Assembly: GCA_003611875.1 (NCBI GenBank)
Contig: RAYY01000002.1
Span: forward strand, 124,001-188,000
DNA: 64,000 nucleotides
Direction of reading: 5' to 3'
DNA from: a bacterium D16-56
GTDB taxonomy: Bacteria > Bacillota > Clostridia > Lachnospirales > Lachnospiraceae
The notes under the pieces: generated by a model
The model's input: the letters and a program-made list of their open reading frames with translations, nothing else
The model's database searches: none
What the model was told of the DNA's origin: nothing
Made by a program: the position numbers and the translations under genes
In this document: positions 12,787 through 53,939 of the stretch, piece after piece
How positions within the stretch are numbered: position 1 is the stretch's first letter
Layout: every line of letters starts with the position of its first letter

Positions 12787-13559
12787 GATTTATCTCCTTC
12801 AAATTCAATCACTGAAGAGAGTAATTGAACAGCATAGGGATGTTTCGCTTCCCGAATTCTGCTGACCGCAATATGCTCTACCCCAGTTCCTTGATACAAA
12901 AGCAGCACTTGATCGCAAAAATATGTCACGGAAGTCAGTTCATGGGTAATAAAAATATAGGTCAACCCAAGAAGTTTTTTCAGTTCTGTCAGCAAATCCA
13001 TAATTTGTACCTGCGTGTGGGCATCCAGGGAGGATATAGGCTCGTCCAGCAGAATTATCTCCGGCCTGCTGGCCACCGCCCTTGCAATACACACTCTCTG
13101 CAGCTGGCCGCCAGACAATTCATGGGGAAAACGATCCGCAAAGTCTCCTGAAAGGCCAACCTGGTTCAAAAGTCGTTCCGACTCCTTACACCGTTCCAGA
13201 CGCTCTCCACTTTTTCTCTCCCAAGCAGAAATCCCTTCCATCAGAATATCTCTTACCCGAAATCTTGGATTAGCCGATGTGGTATAATCCTGAAACACCA
13301 CGCTCATCTGGCTCTGCAGCATCTTTCTTCCCTGGAATCATAAATGGAAACTCCGTCCAAAATAACCTGACCACTGTCTGGTTTTAACAGGCCGCTGATC
13401 CCCCGCCCTATGGTGGACTTTCCGCTGCCAGACTCCCCCAGAATCCCCAGACACTCACCCTGCCCCACAAAAAAAACTTACATTCTTCACCAACTGCTTC
13501 TCTTCTTTTCCCTCTGTTAAGTAAACCTGTAAGTTCTTTGTTTCAAGCACTGTATTCAT
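12783..13559 (-). pseudogene. Oligopeptide/nickel-type ABC ATPase, two frameshifts
   Basis: The ATG at 13559 overlaps the stop of the permease upstream (ATGA). The first frame runs to KNVSFF, then breaks in a run of eight T (near 13470). The next frame gives GILGESGSGKSTI (Walker A), and a second break near 13330 leads into the 179-codon frame with VVFQD, HELSGGQLQR, IILLDEP and TYIFITHE. Parts together make one complete OppF/NikE-like ATPase of about 258 residues. With two independent breaks the ATPase is dead unless these are sequence errors. The poly-T position is a typical slip site. Confidence 0.7.
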
Positions 13560-14379
13560 CCTTCTGCCTCCTTTGGATCCAGTACGTCTCTTAAAGCATC
13601 CCCCATTAGATTAAAGGCAGATACCACCAGAACAATAGCGATTCCAGGAGCCAGCATCTGTACCGGATTACTTGTTAGTACGTTTTTTGCCTCATTCAAC
13701 ATAGCTCCCCACTCTGGCACTGGCGGCTGAACCCCCAGCCCCAGAAAGGAAAGGGTAGAAATATTGATGATCGCCCACCCCACATCCAGAGACGCCAATA
13801 CGACCAGGTCCGCGGCAATGGACGGAACCAGGTGACGAAACAGAACAAACCGTTCCGGTGTCCCGATACACCGGGAAAATTGAATAAAATTCCGATCCCG
13901 GTATTGCATCACTCCAGTGCGTATCATTCGGGCATACCATGCCCACTTAATAAAAATATTGGCCAGGATCACATTCTGCACATTCACTCCCAGAAGGGCC
14001 ACCGCCGCAAACACCATGATTTGGCTTGGGAATGATAGCATCACATCTACGGTACGCATGATCAACTCCTCTGGTATGCCACGGAAATATCCGGCCAGAA
14101 GCCCCATAAGCGTCCCAATTCCGATAGTCCCCAACATGGTAAGCAGAGAAAGCCCAAGGTAGGACGGATTCCGTATATCATCCTGGACAGCATACAGCGT
14201 CCCAGATTGTCAGTCCCCAATGGGTACTCCAGGCTAAAACCGGAAAATTTATTCAAAATATCCGTTTCATATGGGTCGTGAGGAGCCAACACCGGCGCCA
14301 AAACTCCCGTAAGTGCCACCAGCAGCAAGAAGGTTACCGTTACCACCGCGGTTTTATTATGAAAAAAACGCCGTACCAT
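13556..14379 (-). pseudogene. Oligopeptide/nickel-type ABC permease (DppC/NikC family), frameshifted
   Basis: The N-terminal frame (14062-14379) begins MVRRFFHNKTAVVTV and has the family signature PLGTDNLGRCMLSRMIYGIR. Near 14165 the reading moves to a second frame (to 13556) that supplies LGLSLLTMLG, the EAA-like loop, and the ending NLMGDALRDVLDP. A single-base loss at the junction explains the break. The start overlaps the previous stop (TGATG). All other family features are intact, so the damage is recent or a sequencing error. Confidence 0.7.
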
Positions 14380-15056
14380 CAGGCTTCCCCCTTTCTCATT
14401 CTCGGATCCGATATGGTCTGTAAAATATCAAACAGCAGATTGAATGCTACAAACAGCACACCGATCAACAGCACATAAGTCTGGATAACCGGATAATCCC
14501 TGTTAAAAATCGAACTGATACAGAGCGTTCCCAGACCTGGCCACGCAAACACATTTTCCACCACAATGGTTCCGGAAATCAGTTGAGGAATGCTCATGCC
14601 GATCGCCACAATACAGGTATGCATGGAATTTTTTAAAATATGCCGCATCAGAATGTTCTTCTGTGGGAGTCCCCGCACATTTGCATACATCACATAATCC
14701 TGCTTCATATTTTCCAGCATGTTGTTGCGTATCAAGCGGATATAAGTGGAAAGCGAAAATTTCTGTTTCGGTGACTCATCCCGCATGGAATTGATCACCC
14801 CCACATTTTTCAAAATATTCCCGGCATATTCCTGGATGGTTTCCCCGTATGGGGTGATTTTTATGCCCTTGCTTGTACGTTCAAGCAAAGCCCGTCCCAA
14901 TTCCTGCTCCAGACCTCCAATCACCTTGCTTACATTGGGCTGAGTTGTATATAGACTTTCCGCAGCCTGATTAAAGCTGCCATGCCTTCCACGATCCTCA
15001 CTTTCGCTTTCCGATACATGGATTTCAGCAGTTTTCCAGGCTGTACGCCGTTTCAT
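14379..15056 (-). pseudogene. Chimeric frame: LysR DNA-binding domain fused in frame to DppB/NikB permease C-terminus
   Basis: Residues about 27-93 are a LysR-type winged helix (GSFNQAAESLYTTQPNVSKV, then ALLERTSKGIKITPYGE). From about residue 100 the sequence is the second half of a DppB/NikB permease: MLENMKQDYVMYANVRGLPQ is the EAA loop, ISGTIVVENVFAWPGLG and FNLLFDILQTISDP follow. A deletion has removed the rest of LysR, the intergenic DNA and the first four or so permease helices, yet left one open frame of 225 codons. The start MKRRTAWKTAE is itself out of family, so the LysR part also lost its true N-terminus. A functional fusion is unlikely but cannot be excluded. Confidence 0.65.
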
Positions 15057-15085
15057 AGGGAGGTGTAAAATATCCTTCTTTATTT

Positions 15086-15109
15086 ATGAGTTAGCTTATA
15101 CTAACTCAT
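15086..15109. promoter_or_regulatory. 9-bp-arm palindrome upstream of the decayed ABC operon
   Basis: ATGAGTTAG (15086-15094) and CTAACTCAT (15101-15109) are perfect complements with a 6-bp spacer. The core GTTAG-N6-CTAAC is identical in arms and spacing to the dyad in the ABC transporter promoter at 10932-10947. This suggests that one regulator once controlled both. Confidence 0.45.
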
Positions 15110-15140
15110 TTTCAAGTATACCGCTTCTGCCTTATCTTTG

Positions 15141-15791
15141 TCAATAGACTGGAAAATATCCAGGCCGCTTTTTCATTCCTTCGATTACAAACATTCGAGC
15201 TTGTCCGAGATCGTATTGGGGGCCATATTCATTCTCATACAGAAACGCGTTGTATTTTGCGTAAAGGGCATCGATGGTGTCGAGCAGACCGGCCAGATGA
15301 TAGTGTATACTTCCCCGCCATACAAACGTGCAGCGGTTGGCGTTCGCTTCTATCTATGTCCCGTCGATGCAGAGCTCCTTCAGCGTAATGAGTCCTTCCT
15401 TCTGCAGGCGGCGCATAAACTGGTAGTTCCGTTCATCCGGAATCTCGCCGGTCAGTTTTTTTCCTTTAAAATCATAAAAAGCATCCCTCTGAGGCTTCTG
15501 CCCTTTGGTTAGCCAGATAAAAGCAAGATCCCTCTGGCACAGATCCACGATACGGTCAACCGCCCTGACTCCGCGCATGTTTGCGTAGGCAACCACAGAA
15601 TACAACATGATTGGATTATACCCGGTTCTTCCCTTATCCGAATAACAGGCCAGAAGGCCCGAAAAATCGAATTCCTCCATCACTTTTTTCAGGGTAAAGA
15701 CTGGATCGTCGTCGGGTAAACTCAATTCGTAAAAACGGAAGTTAAGTTTTTGTTGACCAATGTCAAAAAAGTCATTATAATAATCTTGTTT
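15141..15791 (-). pseudogene. IS1182-type transposase remnant
   Basis: Frame sections read NDFFDIGQQKLNFRFYELS, then LPDDDPVFTLKKVMEEFDFS, GYNPIMLYSVVAYANMRGV and KGQKPQRDAFYDFKGKKLTG. An in-frame TAG (near 15353) interrupts LCIDGT-IEANANRCTF where a Lys codon is expected, and the frame then continues to MFVIEGMKKRPGYF and a stop at 15141. Only the N-terminal third of an IS1182/DUF772 transposase is present. The catalytic C-terminal acidic residues are gone. No clear terminal repeats were found. Confidence 0.7.
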
Positions 15792-47773: not shown

Positions 47774-48544
47774 TCACAGTCTCAGCTCCCTGAGCGGACA
47801 TACCTGTATGTCCTCTTTCTTTAACGCCTCTCGGATCCGCTCCACAAAGGCAAGCGCCTTCTCCCCGTCTCCGTGGACACAGACCGAGTCTGCCTGAATG
47901 GGAATATCCTTTCCGCTGACAGCCGTCACCGTCCCTTCCTTCACCATCCGAATCACTCGGGCAATGGCCTGCTCCTCATCCGTAATCATGGCTCCGGGCC
48001 TGCCCCTCCCCACCAGGGTTCCGTCCTCCTCATAAGCCCGGTCCGCAAACACCTCCAAGGCTGTCCCAAGTCCCATATCCCTGGCCGCACGGGCAAGCTC
48101 TCCTCCGCTTAAAGCCAGCACGATCAAATTCGGGTCAAAATCCTTCACCGCCTGACAGATTCCCTTTGACAGCGCATAATCCTTTGCTGCCATATTGTAC
48201 AGGGCACCGTGAGGCTTTACATGCTGCAGCCTTATTCCCGCCGAACGGCAGAAGCCGTCTAAAGAGCCAAGCTGGTACAGCACATAGGCATAAGCCTCCT
48301 CTGGCGTCACGGCCATGTTCCTTCTTCCAAACCCCATCAGATCCGGAAATCCCGGATGGGCTCCTACCGAAACCCCTGCTTTCTCTGCCATGGAAACGGT
48401 TTTTACCATCACCACAGGATCCGACGCATGGTAGCCGCACGCCACATTGGCAGAGGTAATAAACGGAAGGATTCTCTCGTCCATCCCCAGGGTATATCTT
48501 CCAAAGCTCTCACCTAAATCACAATTCAAATCAACGCGATCCAT
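47774..48544 (-). CDS. pxpA: 5-oxoprolinase subunit PxpA (LamB/YcsF family)
   Basis: The 256-residue protein begins MDRVDLNCDLGESFGRYTLG and has NVACGYHASDP, GAHPGFPDLMGFGRR, KPHGALYN and ADRAYEEDGTLVGR, all YcsF-family signatures. With PxpB and PxpC it hydrolyses 5-oxoproline (pyroglutamate) to glutamate using ATP. The start is set at ATG 48544 behind AGGAG; the frame reads 14 codons further. It is the most distal pxp gene, separated from accC by about 180 bp with two hairpins, and directly precedes the response regulator. Confidence 0.9.
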   Translation of the reverse strand: MDRVDLNCDLGESFGRYTLGMDERILPFITSANVACGYHASDPVVMVKTVSMAEKAGVSVGAHPGFPDLMGFGRRNMAVTPEEAYAYVLYQLGSLDGFCRSAGIRLQHVKPHGALYNMAAKDYALSKGICQAVKDFDPNLIVLALSGGELARAARDMGLGTALEVFADRAYEEDGTLVGRGRPGAMITDEEQAIARVIRMVKEGTVTAVSGKDIPIQADSVCVHGDGEKALAFVERIREALKKEDIQVCPLRELRL

Positions 48545-48635
48545 ACTTCTCCTCATTTCCTGCAGCCGCCTTCTGCCTGCTGCCATGCTTTTTTACAATG
48601 GTTTTGCTCCTGCTGACCATTCCTGCGAAAATCCC

Positions 48636-48719
48636 ATCGCCGGAGGCGATCTATATTCAGGAATTCCAAATGCGCCCGCAGACTTTCACGGTTGGTGGTG
48701 CGTCTGCGGCCGGGCGCAT
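48636..48719. repeat. Two intercistronic hairpins between accC and pxpA
   Basis: ATCGCC-GGA-GGCGAT (48636-48650) is one perfect small hairpin. ATGCGCCCGCAGAC (48670-48683) pairs with the segment 48702-48719 apart from a 4-nt bulge. Together they may shield the accC message or tune pxpA expression. No T-tract is present. Confidence 0.5.
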
Positions 48720-48725
48720 GCAGGT

Positions 48726-50099
48726 TTACAATTCCGGCACATCAAAAACCGGCTGCTTCATTTTCATAAACTTCTCAATAAACCCGGTATCTGCCTTTCC
48801 CTCCCGAAACACCTTGCTCCGTATGATCTGGAACTGAAAGTCAAGATTCGTATCCACCCCGGTCACCACCATCTCGTCTAAGGCAGTCAGCATTTTACGG
48901 ATGGCTGCCTGCCGGTCCGGTCCGTGGACAATCACCTTGGCAATCATGGAATCATACTCTGCCGGTATCCGGTATCCGGTATACAGAGCCGTATCCACCC
49001 GCACTCCGTTGCCTGCCGGGAGATGAATGTTCTGAACCACGCCGGGACTGGGCATAAAGTTGCGCCCCGGCACCTCTGCGTTAATGCGGCATTCAATGGC
49101 ATGTCCCCGGAGCTTGATATCCTCCTGGGAAAAGCTCAGCGGCTCTCCCATGGATGTCCGAATCTGCTCTATGATCAAATCCGTGCCTGTCACCATCTCC
49201 GTAACCCCATGCTCCACCTGAATCCGGGTATTCATTTCCATAAAATAAAATTCTCCCTGGGGACTTACAATATACTCAATCGTCCCTGCATTGGAGTACC
49301 CCACGGTTTTGGCCGCTAAAACCGCATATTCATTCATCTTCTGGCGCATGGTATTATCAATGGCCGGGGACGGAGATTCCTCAATCAGCTTCTGGTGGTT
49401 TCGCTGCACCGAACAGTCCCTCTCTCCCAGGGCCACCACATTTCCATAGGTATCTGCCATGATCTGAATCTCCACATGGCGGGGGTTCTCAATAAAGCGC
49501 TCCAGATACATGGTATCGTCCCCAAAGGCATTGGCAGACTCTCTTTGAGCCAGATTAAACTGAAATTCAAAGTCATCCTCACTAAAAGCCACCCGCATCC
49601 CCTTGCCGCCTCCTCCGGAGGATGCCTTGATTATCACCGGGTATCCGACTTCTTCTGCCAGCCTTCGGCCGGTTTCTGGGTCATACACCGGATCTCTTGT
49701 CCCCGGCACCACCGGCACCCCGGCATCCATCATGGTCTGCCTGGCCTGAGATTTATTCCCCATCCGGTCTATCACATCCGGGTCCGGACCAATGAAAATA
49801 ATCTCGTTCTCCCTGCATTTACGGGCAAAGGCACTGTTTTCCGAAAGAAATCCAAACCCCGGATGAATGGCGTCTGCATCCACATTCAGCGCTGCACTGA
49901 TGATCCGGTCCATATTCAGATAGCTGTCCTTAGCCGGCCCCTCCCCCACACAGACTTTCTGGTCTGCCAACTGGGTATGCAGGCTGTTCTCATCCTCCTT
50001 TGAGTAGATAGCCACACTGTAAATCCCCATATTCCGGCAGGCACGGATAATGCGCACGGCAATCTCGCCCCGGTTGGCAATCAAAATCTTTTTCATCAT
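48726..50099 (-). CDS. accC: Biotin carboxylase
   Basis: The 457-residue ATP-grasp protein reads MMKKILIANRGEIAVRIIRA, has IHPGFGFLSEN, the Gly-rich ATP loop KASSGGGGKGMRV, EMNTRIQVEHGVTEM and a C-terminal RAAIRKMLTALDEM region. It matches AccC: it carboxylates biotin on a carrier protein using ATP and bicarbonate. The carrier gene lies 20 bp upstream. No acetyl-CoA carboxyltransferase (accA/accD) is in the window; the only carboxyltransferase-like proteins nearby are PxpB and PxpC. So it may serve the lactam pathway (inference). Confidence 0.9.
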   Translation of the reverse strand: MMKKILIANRGEIAVRIIRACRNMGIYSVAIYSKEDENSLHTQLADQKVCVGEGPAKDSYLNMDRIISAALNVDADAIHPGFGFLSENSAFARKCRENEIIFIGPDPDVIDRMGNKSQARQTMMDAGVPVVPGTRDPVYDPETGRRLAEEVGYPVIIKASSGGGGKGMRVAFSEDDFEFQFNLAQRESANAFGDDTMYLERFIENPRHVEIQIMADTYGNVVALGERDCSVQRNHQKLIEESPSPAIDNTMRQKMNEYAVLAAKTVGYSNAGTIEYIVSPQGEFYFMEMNTRIQVEHGVTEMVTGTDLIIEQIRTSMGEPLSFSQEDIKLRGHAIECRINAEVPGRNFMPSPGVVQNIHLPAGNGVRVDTALYTGYRIPAEYDSMIAKVIVHGPDRQAAIRKMLTALDEMVVTGVDTNLDFQFQIIRSKVFREGKADTGFIEKFMKMKQPVFDVPEL

Positions 50100-50119
50100 C
50101 CTTCCAACCTCCTTGGCGC

Positions 50120-50569
50120 TTAGATTTTCTTTACCCGGAACAAGGGCTGGCCATACTCCACCTTCTGCTCATTGCTCACCAGCACTGCCTCGATCTCACA
50201 ATCATACTCACACTGAATCTCATTCATCAGCTTCATGGCCTCCAGGATACACACCGTCTGTCCCTCCTTGACCCGGTCTCCCACCCGCACAAAAGCAGGC
50301 ACATCCGGGGCGGATGCCGAATAAAAGGTTCCCACAATGGGGGAGGTAATAAAAAGAGATTCCTCCTCTCCTTCCTCTGCCTTTTCCTGTACCGGGACCG
50401 TGATCTGCGGTGCGCTTACCCCTGCCATAGCCGGAACCCCTGCCGCCACAATCGGCGGGTGGTCCAGCTTGCTCATGGTGATCTTCACGTCCCCTTCCTT
50501 ATACGTAAACTCCTTCAAAGAAGAGTCCTCAATCAGCTTTACCAAACCTGCAATCTTTTCCAAATCCAT
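50120..50569 (-). CDS. accB: Biotin carboxyl carrier protein
   Basis: The 149-residue protein has the N-terminal helix MDLEKIAGLVKLIEDSSLKE, an Ala/Pro/Glu linker and a biotinyl domain (about 73-149). Lys113 in LEAMKLMNEI is the expected biotinylation site. IVGTFYSASAPD is the AccB thumb region. ATG 50569 follows GGAAAGGAAG; the longer frame has 52 codons of unlikely protein. It should carry carboxybiotin between AccC and a carboxyltransferase. Confidence 0.92.
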   Translation of the reverse strand: MDLEKIAGLVKLIEDSSLKEFTYKEGDVKITMSKLDHPPIVAAGVPAMAGVSAPQITVPVQEKAEEGEEESLFITSPIVGTFYSASAPDVPAFVRVGDRVKEGQTVCILEAMKLMNEIQCEYDCEIEAVLVSNEQKVEYGQPLFRVKKI

Positions 50570-50673
50570 ATTTTCGTCTTCCTTTCCTGTGAAAGTCTCG
50601 ATTCCCTGCTGTAGGTCTGCGCAGGGTCTGCCCCAGCGAAGCGAGGGTACTGGCTGCTCTGACCATATGACGC

Positions 50674-50694
50674 GCCAAAATGCCCGGTTTTGGC
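50674..50694. repeat. Hairpin between pxpC and accB
   Basis: GCCAAAA (50674-50680) pairs with TTTTGGC (50688-50694) around TGCCCGG. It lies in the 156-bp gap between pxpC and accB, the largest gap within the pxpB-accC stretch. It may be a processing or partial termination site. Confidence 0.4.
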
Positions 50695-50725
50695 ATTTAT
50701 CCCTCTTGCAATCCCTGCCGAACAT

Positions 50726-51730
50726 TTATGAAAACAATTTCCGAATCCTTCTGGAAACCTGGCGGCACTCCAGCACCTCTTTACATGGCTGGTGAATCAT
50801 TTTCCTCATCCGGCTGAACTCTTTGGACTCCTCCAGATAAAGTCTCTGAGCCTCCTCCACGCTGACTGCCTTAAACCGGACCTTGTGATCGGTCTTGCGC
50901 TGAACCAGCCAGGGAATATCCACCGACGCCACCGTAGCAATCTTAGGATATCCGCCTGTGGTCTGACGGTCAGCCAAAAGTATAATAGGCTTTCCATGGG
51001 AAGGCACCTGCACAGAGCCAAAGGCAATTCCGTCCGAAATCATGTCCGAGGTCTCCTTCCTGGCAATATAGGGCCCCTCCAATCTGCACCCCATACGGTC
51101 AAAGTCACTGGTCACCGTATATTCGCTGTTTAAAAATGTCTCGATTCCCTGTTTGCTGAACCGGTCCTCCTGGGGTCCCAGCACCACCCGCAGCGTCACG
51201 TCCTCCTGGTTAAATTCATCCAGCTCCAGTGTCCTGGAAAGAAAGAACGGAAGATATCTCCGTTTAATGCGAAAGCCGATATAATCCCCGTCCTGCAGCT
51301 TCCTTCCCTTAAATCCTCCAATAGAACTCTTCATGTTGGTACAGCGGCTTCCCATGACCACCGGAATTTTCAGATAGCTGGAAAAGGCAATATAGCCCCG
51401 GCTGCCTGTGCGGGCGCTGCCGAATTTCAGCACATCTCCCTTATGAACGTCAATGGCCGTGTACATAGGCGCCGGCTCTCCGTTGATAACAGGCTGGAAA
51501 TCCCCTCCTGTAATGGCAATCAAAGTCCCGTCTGTAAATTCCAGGGTGGGGCCGATCAAGGAAAATTCCAGCACAGCCTCATTTTCCGGATTGTCAAGAA
51601 GCAGGTTGGCAAGCTTAAAGGAGCGCACATCCATCACACCTGCCACGGAAAAGCCCTGGCTCTGATAGCCGGTCCGCCCCAGATCCTGCACGGTAGTCAT
51701 CATACCGGCTTTTATAATGCGAATCCCCAT
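50726..51730 (-). CDS. pxpC: 5-oxoprolinase subunit PxpC (KipA/biotin-dependent carboxyltransferase family)
   Basis: The 334-residue protein has the family opening MGIRIIKAGMMTTVQDLGRT and YQSQGFSVAGVMD. Later come VLEFSLIGPTLEF, ITGGDF, SDGIAFGSVQVPSHGKPIIL, DRQTTGGYPKIATVASVD. It is related to the carboxyltransferase part of urea carboxylase. With PxpB it forms the ATP-using complex acting with PxpA. ATG 51730 has GAGGAGG ten bases upstream, located in the end of pxpB. Neighbouring biotin genes make a biotin-linked role possible but unproven. Confidence 0.9.
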   Translation of the reverse strand: MGIRIIKAGMMTTVQDLGRTGYQSQGFSVAGVMDVRSFKLANLLLDNPENEAVLEFSLIGPTLEFTDGTLIAITGGDFQPVINGEPAPMYTAIDVHKGDVLKFGSARTGSRGYIAFSSYLKIPVVMGSRCTNMKSSIGGFKGRKLQDGDYIGFRIKRRYLPFFLSRTLELDEFNQEDVTLRVVLGPQEDRFSKQGIETFLNSEYTVTSDFDRMGCRLEGPYIARKETSDMISDGIAFGSVQVPSHGKPIILLADRQTTGGYPKIATVASVDIPWLVQRKTDHKVRFKAVSVEEAQRLYLEESKEFSRMRKMIHQPCKEVLECRQVSRRIRKLFS

Positions 51731-51731
51731 G

Positions 51732-52457
51732 CTACACCTCCTCGTGAGTGACACATTGATAGCTTCCATCTTCCACCTGCGCCTGAATCTGTTTGTACTG
51801 TTCTTCATCAATCGGAACAAAACGAATGTAATTTCCCGCCTCCACCAAAATGGGGATCTCCCGCTCCGGGTCGTAGGTTTTTACCGGCGTCATGCCCATA
51901 AGCTGCCATCCTCCCGGAGAATCTAAGGGATAGATTCCTGTCTGGGATCCTCCGATCCCCACGCTTCCCGCACGAATCCTTAATCGGGGGTTGGAAAGCC
52001 TTGGAGTGTGTATCCGCTCATCCAGCCCGCCAAGATAGCAAAAGCCTGGCAGAAATCCCAGCATATAGATCAGATAATCCCTGGAGCTGTGAATGGCAAT
52101 CACTTCATCCTGGCTGATGCCGGCATGCTCTGCAATGGATGCCAGGTCAGGGCCATACTCACCTCCGTATAAGACCGGAATCTCAAAAATCTTCCGTTTT
52201 ACCTGTCCGACCTTAATGTCCACCCTCACCAGGCTCTCCAGCCGTTTCTTCATCTTCTCATAGCCTGCCACCCGCGGGTCATAATTTACCAACAGCGAAC
52301 AGAATGCCGGAATCACATCCACCACTCCTTCAATATGCTGTTCCCTCATCAGCTCCACAACTGCCGCAATCCTGCGGTTGATCTCCGGGCTGATCTCATT
52401 TCCAAACTCAATCAGGAGAGAAGAATCTCCTGCGGTCAAAATTCTGATGTTCTGCAT
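51732..52457 (-). CDS. pxpB: 5-oxoprolinase subunit PxpB (KipI family)
   Basis: The 241-residue protein shows LTAGDSSLLIEFGNEISPEI, FCSLLVNYDP, IPVLYGGEYGPDL, YLIYMLGFLPGFCYLGGLDE, PRLSNPRLRIRAGSVGIGGSQ and GIYPLDSPGGWQLMG. These are the KipI/PxpB signatures. It pairs with PxpC, whose ATG follows its stop by one base. ATG 52457 is proposed behind GGAAAG; a longer frame opens at 52490. KipI of Bacillus also inhibits a sporulation kinase, so a regulatory side role is possible. Confidence 0.9.
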   Translation of the reverse strand: MQNIRILTAGDSSLLIEFGNEISPEINRRIAAVVELMREQHIEGVVDVIPAFCSLLVNYDPRVAGYEKMKKRLESLVRVDIKVGQVKRKIFEIPVLYGGEYGPDLASIAEHAGISQDEVIAIHSSRDYLIYMLGFLPGFCYLGGLDERIHTPRLSNPRLRIRAGSVGIGGSQTGIYPLDSPGGWQLMGMTPVKTYDPEREIPILVEAGNYIRFVPIDEEQYKQIQAQVEDGSYQCVTHEEV

Positions 52458-52568
52458 AATCTTTCCAGCTAGCTCTCCTTTCTGAGACATTGCTCATTGG
52501 CTCTTTGCTATACTCCAAAAAGGCGTAACCCATACTGCGATCACACCTTTATGAAGTATTTTTGTTCC

Positions 52569-53777
52569 TTATATCAGCTTTCCCATATTAGATACAAATG
52601 TAGTGATTCCCAGGTAAGCGGAAATAACCACTACAATCACTCCCAAAATCAGCAAAACCATAGGATGGGAATAGGCTTCTCCCATGATGGATTTTTTCTT
52701 TGCCGCTATCAGGCAGATTCCTAAGGTAATGGGCAGAATCAATCCATTCAAAGCTCCTGCCAGAACCAAAAGCTTTGCCGGCTGTCCTAAAAGAATCATG
52801 ATAATGGTGGAAACCGCGATAAAGCCAATGATCACCCAGTTCTCATTTTTGTCAATCGCCGGATGGAAGGTCTTTAAAAAGGACACGGAGGTGTAGGCCG
52901 CACCGATGATCGAGGTAACTGCGGCACACAACAGCACCAGACCGGCAAAACGATATCCCATCTCTCCTGCACCCAGCCGGAATGCATCTGCCGCCGGGTT
53001 GGATGCATCCAGTACAGCGCCATCTGCCAGCCTTGCCACCACACCTAATACTGCCAGGAAAAGGAAAATGCGGACAATGGTCGCAATCAGCATTCCCATG
53101 AGAGAACTCTTATTGATCTCCTTCAGATTATCCATGCCAGTAACCCCTCCGTCGATCAGCCGGTGCGCGCCGGAGAAGGTAATATAACCTCCCACGGTTC
53201 CTCCCAGAAGGGTAATAATAGCCGGAACCAGATTGGAAACGCCTGCAGACGGAACAAAGGTATTCTTTAAGGCATCCCCCATGGGCGGCTTTATCACAAT
53301 AATAATGCCGAAGATAACCACAATCATAATTCCCCCCAGCACCTTGGCCAGGGTATCCATGGCAGACTTGGCATTCTTAACCAGAAATACTGCTATGGCG
53401 ATCAGGCCAGCCAGGGCACATCCCACAGGGGTAGGAATCCCTAACAGAGTGTTAAAGCCCAGGGCGCCTCCGCCTACATTGCCAATATTAAATGCCAGGC
53501 CGCCCAAGGCCACCATAAATGCCACAAAATATCCCAATCCCGGAAGAACCTTATTGGCCACATCCTGCCCCCGAAGGCCGGATACACAGAGCACCCGCCA
53601 GATATTGATCTGTGCAATGGCAGACAGGATAATCGAAACCAGAATGACGAATCCAAAGCTGCCTGCATGTGTGCCTGTAAACTGAGCTGTCTGAGTCAGA
53701 AAGCCCGGCCCGATAGCAGATGTGGCCATCAAAAATGCTGCTCCAAGTAGCGCGCCGCCGCTTTTTTTCTCTTTCAT
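52569..53777 (-). CDS. NRAMP-fold transporter, non-canonical (YcsG-like)
   Basis: The 402-residue protein has about eleven membrane segments of the NRAMP/LeuT fold. At helix 1 the canonical DPGN metal motif is replaced by SAIGPGFLTQTAQ, and at helix 6 the usual MPH motif is TFSGAHRLID. Both changes remove known metal ligands, so Mn/Fe transport is doubtful. Related genes sit beside pxp genes in Bacillus (ycsG), and here it is the first gene of the operon. Import of 5-oxoproline or another lactam is a reasonable hypothesis. The start follows AAAAGGAGG. Confidence 0.8.
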   Translation of the reverse strand: MKEKKSGGALLGAAFLMATSAIGPGFLTQTAQFTGTHAGSFGFVILVSIILSAIAQINIWRVLCVSGLRGQDVANKVLPGLGYFVAFMVALGGLAFNIGNVGGGALGFNTLLGIPTPVGCALAGLIAIAVFLVKNAKSAMDTLAKVLGGIMIVVIFGIIIVIKPPMGDALKNTFVPSAGVSNLVPAIITLLGGTVGGYITFSGAHRLIDGGVTGMDNLKEINKSSLMGMLIATIVRIFLFLAVLGVVARLADGAVLDASNPAADAFRLGAGEMGYRFAGLVLLCAAVTSIIGAAYTSVSFLKTFHPAIDKNENWVIIGFIAVSTIIMILLGQPAKLLVLAGALNGLILPITLGICLIAAKKKSIMGEAYSHPMVLLILGVIVVVISAYLGITTFVSNMGKLI

Positions 53778-53831
53778 AGGAAAATCCTCCTTTTATTCAG
53801 ATATTTTGCAGCAGTTCTCTGTACGTTGCCT

Positions 53832-53857
53832 TCCGGAATCCTCACCCTCCGGAATCC
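53832..53857 (-). repeat. Direct repeat in the 5' leader of the pxp operon
   Basis: TCCGGAATCC occurs at 53832-53841 and 53848-53857. The minus-strand leader is about 127 nt long, and the repeats can pair as TTCCGGA/TCCGGAA. They may be protein sites or an RNA hairpin. No known riboswitch was recognised. Confidence 0.35.
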
Positions 53858-53910
53858 TTAAAAAGCTTCTGTACCGGTCCTTTATCACTGCAATGCTTTA
53901 GCTTACGGCA

Positions 53911-53939
53911 ATTATATACGCACCAGCCGGAAATGTCAA
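53911..53939 (-). promoter_or_regulatory. Consensus promoter of the pxp operon
   Basis: The minus strand has TTGACA (53934-53939), exactly 17 bp, and TATAAT (53911-53916). All genes from the NRAMP-like transporter to the histidine kinase (about 8 kb) could be read from it. From 53940 to 54400 I see no gene; there is only a run of CTGGAAAA-like units near 54030-54060. Confidence 0.75.

Follow-up and report, generated by a model that had tools for sequence, protein, structure and literature searches.

A pxp operon with its own biotin carboxylase and carrier protein in a Lachnospiraceae bacterium: a candidate dedicated partner of 5-oxoprolinase

Introduction

PxpABC is the 5-oxoprolinase of Bacillus subtilis, Escherichia coli and Corynebacterium glutamicum, which breaks down the waste lactam 5-oxoproline. 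It consumes ATP although it is not known to have an ATP-binding domain. Here, a pxp operon that includes accC, encoding a biotin carboxylase (BC), and accB, encoding a biotin carboxyl carrier protein (BCCP), is described in a 64,000-nt stretch of DNA (the window) from the gut bacterium D16-56 (Lachnospiraceae), the draft genome of which (G000) is 5.54 Mb; the window lies on contig C124. The best explanation, to which a probability of about 0.5 is given as a whole, is that AccB and AccC form a BC module dedicated to PxpABC, which is proposed to carboxylate 5-oxoproline. That the pair is a dedicated module is considered likely; the carboxylation chemistry is put forward tentatively, at a little less than an even chance.

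In Staphylococcus aureus, a six-gene operon under CcpE includes pxpB, pxpC, pxpA, accB and accC (PMC11315280). The consulted excerpt of that paper assigns accBC to fatty-acid synthesis and mentions no link to PxpBC, and the gene set is already known in print under that reading. Lactiplantibacillus pentosus, known here by the description in an excerpt of PMC12427679, has extra BCCP and BC copies together with pxpB and pxpC only. The excerpt of a C. glutamicum paper (PMC13274462) includes no BC link to PxpABC, and no proposal of a biotin-dependent PxpABC was recognised in the open-licence literature searched. For another lactam, the caprolactamase CapAB catalyses ATP-dependent hydrolysis that needs bicarbonate, and a carboxylated lactim is one proposed intermediate (PMC8453981, in part).

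Organisation of the operon

The operon occupies 53939–47774 of the minus strand and consists of the following features.

53911–53939, minus strand: promoter-like site TTGACA-17-TATAAT, a 12/12 match to the sigma-70-type consensus
52569–53777, minus strand: NRAMP-family transporter, a relative of B. subtilis YcsG/MntG (PF01566)
51732–52490, minus strand: PxpB, carboxyltransferase subdomain C/D (PF02682; TIGR00370 above cut-off)
50726–51730, minus strand: PxpC, carboxyltransferase subdomain A/B (PF02626; TIGR00724 above cut-off)
50120–50569, minus strand: AccB, BCCP (TIGR00531 above cut-off)
48726–50099, minus strand: AccC, BC (TIGR00514 above cut-off)
47774–48544, minus strand: PxpA, LamB/YcsF-family ring-opening subunit (PF03746 and NF003814 above cut-off; start and ribosome-binding site from sequence)

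The six genes, the promoter and an AMKLM biotin site had been claimed in an earlier note made from the DNA alone, and all are present according to the open reading frames (ORFs), family models and a promoter scan. The 12/12 promoter match is the single site of such quality between 45500 and 54600, where runner-up sites reach 10/12; ten sites in all is close to the shuffled-sequence expectation of 8.5. Intergenic gaps are 1 nt (PxpB-PxpC), 156 nt (PxpC-AccB), 20 nt (AccB-AccC) and 181 nt (AccC-PxpA), and one transcript for all six genes is plausible.

The start of PxpC was corrected to 51730 from 51820 in the mechanical ORF list. AccB probably starts at ATG 50569, and not with the longer ORF from 50725, because AGGAAAGGA stands before this ATG. 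Its biotin site, EAMKLM, is intact (Lys113, codon 50231–50233). PxpC passed the broader TIGR00724 model and matched the equivalog model NF045499 under its cut-off (236.9 of 500 bits); its closest matches in the collection of named loci are from Lachnospiraceae. Relatives of PxpB in the PDB are 2phc, 5dud_B and 9yx5_W.

Members of the PxpA, PxpB and PxpC families, which together define PxpABC, are found here in one operon. The BC and biotinylated carrier of a urea-carboxylase-type enzyme also appear to be encoded, and the CT_A_B/CT_C_D carboxyltransferase (CT) fold of such an enzyme is present. The full set of BC, BCCP and CT-like parts in a single operon is as the note had described it; accA and accD are absent from the operon, which therefore does not make up a housekeeping acetyl-CoA carboxylase (ACC) of AccA and AccD with AccB and AccC.

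A second acc set in the same genome

Two BC matches (PF02785) were found in the window genome, the operon copy and a copy on contig C116 that lies beside AccB and AccA matches. Because of this second accB/accC/accA set, the operon accB and accC are not the housekeeping set of this genome. The possibility that they were had been named in the earlier note as one that would refute its idea, which stands after this check. The housekeeping reading was thus rejected for the window genome; it was retained as a rival given genomes such as G447 (see below).

Both proteins are conserved. The EAMK[LM] site is present in 44/44 distinct PxpC-adjacent AccB ORFs, and four BC motifs are present in 42/44 PxpC-adjacent AccC ORFs, the window type among them. 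The two exceptions come from L059, which is of the urea-carboxylase type, and from the divergent L116. In comparison with five relatives, dN/dS was 0.03–0.09 for AccB and 0.03–0.07 for AccC, as low as for PxpA, PxpB, PxpC and the NRAMP protein, though these values are rough, with dS mostly >1.

Recurrence of the linked operon

The earlier note had called for a survey of accB/accC in pxp operons. PxpC was used as bait to fetch 61 named loci, and 25 of them have the complete NRAMP-PxpB-PxpC-AccB-AccC-PxpA block in the same order. Four more (L017, L027, L030 and L038) include AccB but are split or truncated at contig ends, and in L037 the contig is cut ahead of accB. The block was not seen in the remaining 31, which are pxp operons without AccBC, urea-carboxylase-type loci and fragments.

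A CT_A_B match was found in 91 of the 299 genomes of a phylum sample, and 80 of these PxpC-positive genomes were examined after 11 had been dropped (3 fragmentary and 8 mostly of the same genus). By coordinates, a BC gene adjoins PxpC in three of the 80 (G000, G158 and G228). In a family sample of 200 genomes, 37 had CT_A_B; 14/37 have a PxpB-PxpC-AccB-AccC block, with the BC on the same strand as PxpC and no more than 3 kb away, two (G311 and G321) have a divergent arrangement, and 18 have no BC near PxpC, one of these (G414) on a contig of just 3 kb. A fused urea carboxylase-like ORF is present in the other three (G411, G441 and G465); these were set aside, as no PxpA match was found among nearby ORFs of >250 aa. 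By our own estimate, which assumes about two BCs in 3 Mb and ignores kinship, well under one adjacent BC-PxpC pair per sample would be expected by chance. No clear biotin site near PxpC was revealed by a motif scan of 18 regions without adjacent AccBC.

A relative of D-glutamate cyclase adjoins AccC in four linked operons (L102, L103, L124 and L129; confirmed with Pfam for L102), which ties the linked operons to 5-oxoproline. At L102, ORFs resembling bioA, bioD and bioY were seen by eye in the translations on the opposite strand (13030–15657), shortly past the pxp-accBC operon of family f34.

On a PxpC tree of 62 rows, from which L103, L141, L071 and L083 were left out as too short, the accBC-linked label requires five gains or losses, and well-supported branches force at least four of these. 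Linked rows form a main Lachnospiraceae clade, and occur also as L119 and L122 within a dehydrogenase-type, otherwise unlinked group and as L102 of family f34. L138 is nested in the main linked clade, yet lacks AccBC. On an AccC tree of 36 rows, the pxp AccCs lie apart from the fatty-acid AccCs and need three changes, at least two of them forced. From one alignment (A1), L041, L045 and L071 were left out, 36 of 39 rows being kept. This pattern favours repeated recruitment of AccBC to pxp operons. The operon is, in sum, real and conserved; it occurs on several backgrounds and, in the window genome, does not hold the housekeeping set.

Genomes with a single BC and the fatty-acid alternative

A second BC is present in 11 of the 14 linked family genomes. 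In two Lachnospiraceae genomes, G395 (98% complete) and G444 (93%), no BC besides the pxp copy was found, ACCA matches reach at most 41 bits, and no FabF match was obtained; the ACCA search covered 30 of the 37 family genomes and the FabF search 16. FabF was also not found in G381, G419, G486 and G495, all of which have PxpC and no BC. Family members lacking fatty-acid synthesis seem to exist, with PxpABC persisting in some of them without any BC.

Thirty further genomes, for which completeness is not given, were reached via the named loci. In ten (G496, G501, G503, G504, G505, G506, G507, G510, G524 and G525) the pxp BC is the sole BC and true AccA was not found, and the same probably applies to G502, in which a BC fragment lies at a contig edge. 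G525 is probably the same genome as G395, with which it shares hit coordinates, and an assembly gap is likely in G496 and G501 because close relatives hold the fatty-acid synthesis set. Fifteen genomes have both a second BC and AccA, G515 is cut, and three (G511, G512 and G521) have AccA with the pxp BC as sole BC.

The operon pair could instead be a second ACC pair under nitrogen or carbon control that feeds AccD/AccA of fatty-acid synthesis, with PxpABC acting independently. The closest family models of AccB and AccC are indeed those of ACC, and the authors of the S. aureus study read the pair in this way in the consulted part of PMC11315280. In G447 (99% complete), accD, accA and fab genes are clustered, by eye, without accB or accC, and the pxp BC is the sole BC, so the pxp pair probably serves both roles there; G511, G512 and G521 point the same way. 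However, G395, G444 and the ten named-locus genomes listed above (one of them seemingly G395 again) retain the pxp pair with no true AccA found, nor FabF in the first two. Moreover, within the same genomes the pxp AccCs do not group with the fatty-acid AccCs, and a second ACC pair would leave unexplained the PxpC tail and the PxpC-AccB fusion described below. This alternative is considered unlikely as an account of the operon.

Alternatively, AccB and AccC might feed carboxybiotin to another CT elsewhere, for example one like MmdA or PycB, operon membership then being mere co-regulation. Weak ACCA-family matches occur in nearly all genomes searched, including G395 and G444; most are in ORFs of some 500 aa, and they resemble CT subunits of the decarboxylase type. 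Those of the window genome, however, lie near carriers of their own (L107 and L108), G505 has the pxp pair and zero ACCA-family matches, and the recurrent adjacency is to PxpC; such a role is therefore regarded as highly improbable.

As a separate observation, G356 (locus L132) and G483 have AccA-type matches and no BC genome-wide; the L132 match lies within a fab cluster by eye.

Structure and tails of PxpC

The predicted PxpC model (mean pLDDT 86.8) resembles chain A of E. coli YbgJK (Z 38.7) and the Kluyveromyces lactis urea amidolyase (KlUA; Z 36.3, 2.4 Å over 308 residues). In addition, the linked PxpC carries an extension.

50729–50818, minus strand: PxpC C-terminal tail, residues about 305–334, IHxPCKEVL...R..KLF, specific to the main linked clade

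By eye, the motif is present in 39/39 linked rows of the main clade and in 0/44 unlinked rows, L138 included. No family or PDB match beyond chance was found for it.

Another tail is related to a biotin carrier. The unlinked PxpC of G293 (L166, 5475–6662; family f43) ends in an AccB N-terminal domain that lacks the biotin site (TIGR00531, E 3.4e-4; 38% identical to the window AccB over 34 residues). When this tail was compared with 18,096 ORFs, 24/24 of the others among the matches listed, besides itself, were AccB.

The PxpC of G272, also of family f43, and other unlinked PxpCs end in a hairpin that resembles the start of decarboxylase gamma subunits. A profile of 22 such tails, picked by eye, was run against the same 18,096 ORFs; the one significant match outside PxpC was to the decarboxylase carrier of the genome itself, at L006/L107 (E 1.6e-4; next 0.95). 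Two tails scanned singly gave weak matches to carrier models (E 0.07 and 0.09). A profile of 20 tails found no biotin carrier in the PDB; its best match was an antifreeze-protein repeat (E 2.6e-4, with no single stretch passing), and the rest were at 0.27 or worse. The likeness to gamma subunits is thus suggestive only.

A further reading of these data is that PxpB-PxpC is a true CT, 5-oxoproline or a related lactam being activated by carboxybiotin and opened by PxpA in several bacterial lineages as the work of a biotin-dependent lactam carboxylase-hydrolase, and that PxpC docks biotin carriers via exchangeable carrier-derived tails, namely the AccB N-terminal domain in G293 and the gamma-subunit-like hairpin in 22 other PxpC rows. 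It is offered as a possibility on the doubtful side.

Proposed mechanism and substrate

In the proposed route, AccC would carboxylate biotin on AccB using ATP and bicarbonate, and carboxybiotin would then visit PxpB-PxpC, which share the CT fold of urea carboxylase. The carboxyl group would activate 5-oxoproline at the lactam N (or O), PxpA would open the activated ring, and the N-carboxyglutamate formed would lose CO2 to give glutamate. The net reaction would be that known for 5-oxoprolinase, with one ATP per 5-oxoproline and bicarbonate as a catalyst, in parallel with urea amidolyase. We infer the docking, the carboxyl transfer to 5-oxoproline and the carboxylated intermediate. The earlier note had set a carboxylated intermediate against the known ATP-dependent hydrolysis; this contrast is weaker than claimed, as a route via carboxybiotin would, on balance, use the same amount of ATP. 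The NRAMP transporter probably supplies Mn2+, like MntG, perhaps for PxpA or the carboxylase; YcsG imports Mn2+ according to an excerpt of PMC10448178.

The four proteins PxpB, PxpC, AccB and AccC might also form a carboxylase of another, urea-like amide or lactam, 5-oxoproline not being a substrate. This is suggested by L119 (5075–11879) and L122 (2669–9369), in which AccBC and a divergent PxpABC share an operon with an SDF symporter and a 2-hydroxyacid dehydrogenase, in the order PxpB'-PxpC'-AccB-AccC-dehydrogenase-PxpA'-symporter, with a LysR gene. Because PxpB' has lost the canonical motifs there, the substrate of this variant may differ, and a PxpBC-AccBC module can thus serve something else. 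The window PxpB, however, keeps the canonical PxpB motifs, and the D-glutamate cyclase relative adjoins AccC in four linked operons; a substrate other than 5-oxoproline is very unlikely for the window operon.

A similar dehydrogenase gene lies between PxpC' and PxpA' at L135, L139, L150 and L153, without AccBC. At L117 (G321) and L116 (G311), divergent PxpB/PxpC-like genes accompany a BC and a Cys/Met pyridoxal-phosphate enzyme; PxpA and a biotin ligase are further found at L117, where the BC ORF continues in frame into a cytidylate-kinase-like domain.

Evidence for and against a dedicated module

The best explanation is favoured by the second acc set, the sole-BC genomes, the recurrence on separate PxpC backgrounds, the tail of the linked clade and the low dN/dS. 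Also in its favour are the PxpC-AccB domain fusion of G293, the D-glutamate cyclase neighbours, the caprolactamase precedent and the title of PDB entry 9YX5, 'Structure of the long chain acyl-CoA carboxylase complex from Mycobacterium smegmatis with MSMEG_0435-MSMEG_0436 bound'. The idea of a lactam carboxylase, as first noted, has gained from the non-housekeeping set, the recurrent pairing and this title; carboxylation of 5-oxoproline itself remains a proposal.

Several observations weigh on the other side. PxpABC is not generally BC-dependent, because 39 of the 80 PxpC-bearing genomes of the phylum sample show no BC match (41/80 have any BC), and genomes without a BC match retain pxp operons, often with D-glutamate cyclase. 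G381 (L138) has lost AccBC at the locus and shows no BC in the genome, PxpABC being retained. Most sole-BC genomes are assemblies of unstated completeness, and the pxp pair can probably serve ACC in G447, G511, G512 and G521. The trees alone do not separate repeated gains from repeated losses, and the PxpC tail is present in 0/4 rows of the two other linked groups.

The active site gives no support for a linked type either. In urea carboxylase a Lys is the proposed general base (PMC5770610, in part). The corresponding KlUA Lys1605 aligns with Arg in 52/52 PxpB rows, linked or not, when four urea carboxylases are aligned; the window PxpB has Arg164 in place of the base, and in L113, L119 and L122 a Lys stands one place before this position. 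Linked-specific residues were not found at aligned positions of PxpB, and residue differences of linked PxpC are mostly common to unlinked sister rows, following descent. A signature of linked PxpBC was sought in the active site, and none was found that unlinked PxpBC lacks. Because genomes without a BC match keep pxp operons, the Lys is replaced by Arg and no linked-specific signature was found, the core chemistry of PxpABC can proceed in the absence of biotin; AccBC would at most provide an alternative or added activation of the lactam. In 2017, Niehaus reportedly reconstituted the B. subtilis enzyme from PxpA, PxpB and PxpC.

A natural pxp operon with its own BC makes the carboxylation mechanism directly testable. 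If true, such a mechanism would account for the old link of PxpBC to 'allophanate hydrolase', and it would correct the assignment of some additional accBC genes of Bacillota to fatty-acid synthesis.

Neighbouring genes

Genes for a LytTR response regulator and then a GHKL histidine kinase follow on the minus strand (47772–45768), the former starting 1 base past the pxpA stop, and may be co-transcribed with the pxp operon. No LytTR or GHKL relatives scoring >60 bits were found in the related named loci.

Comparison with known systems

By family, PxpA, PxpB and PxpC of the window operon are the same as those of the PxpABC 5-oxoprolinases of B. subtilis, E. coli and C. glutamicum, and an NRAMP partner is shared with the pxp genes of B. 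subtilis (PMC10448178, in part). Unlike those systems, the window operon has accB and accC between pxpC and pxpA, and its PxpC has an extra C-terminal tail. The S. aureus operon, likened here by description only (PMC11315280, in part), has the same gene set in one operon. Caprolactamase CapAB differs from PxpBC-AccBC in belonging to an unrelated family, of the acetone/acetophenone carboxylase type, and in having no biotin. In 9YX5, the PxpB/PxpC homologues MSMEG_0435-0436 are in one structure with AccA3, bound according to the title; that system is actinobacterial and has a fused BC-BCCP subunit. Urea carboxylase and urea amidolyase share BC, BCCP and the same CT fold with the window system, which is made up of separate polypeptides, has a LamB/YcsF hydrolase in place of allophanate hydrolase, and carries Arg in place of Lys1605.

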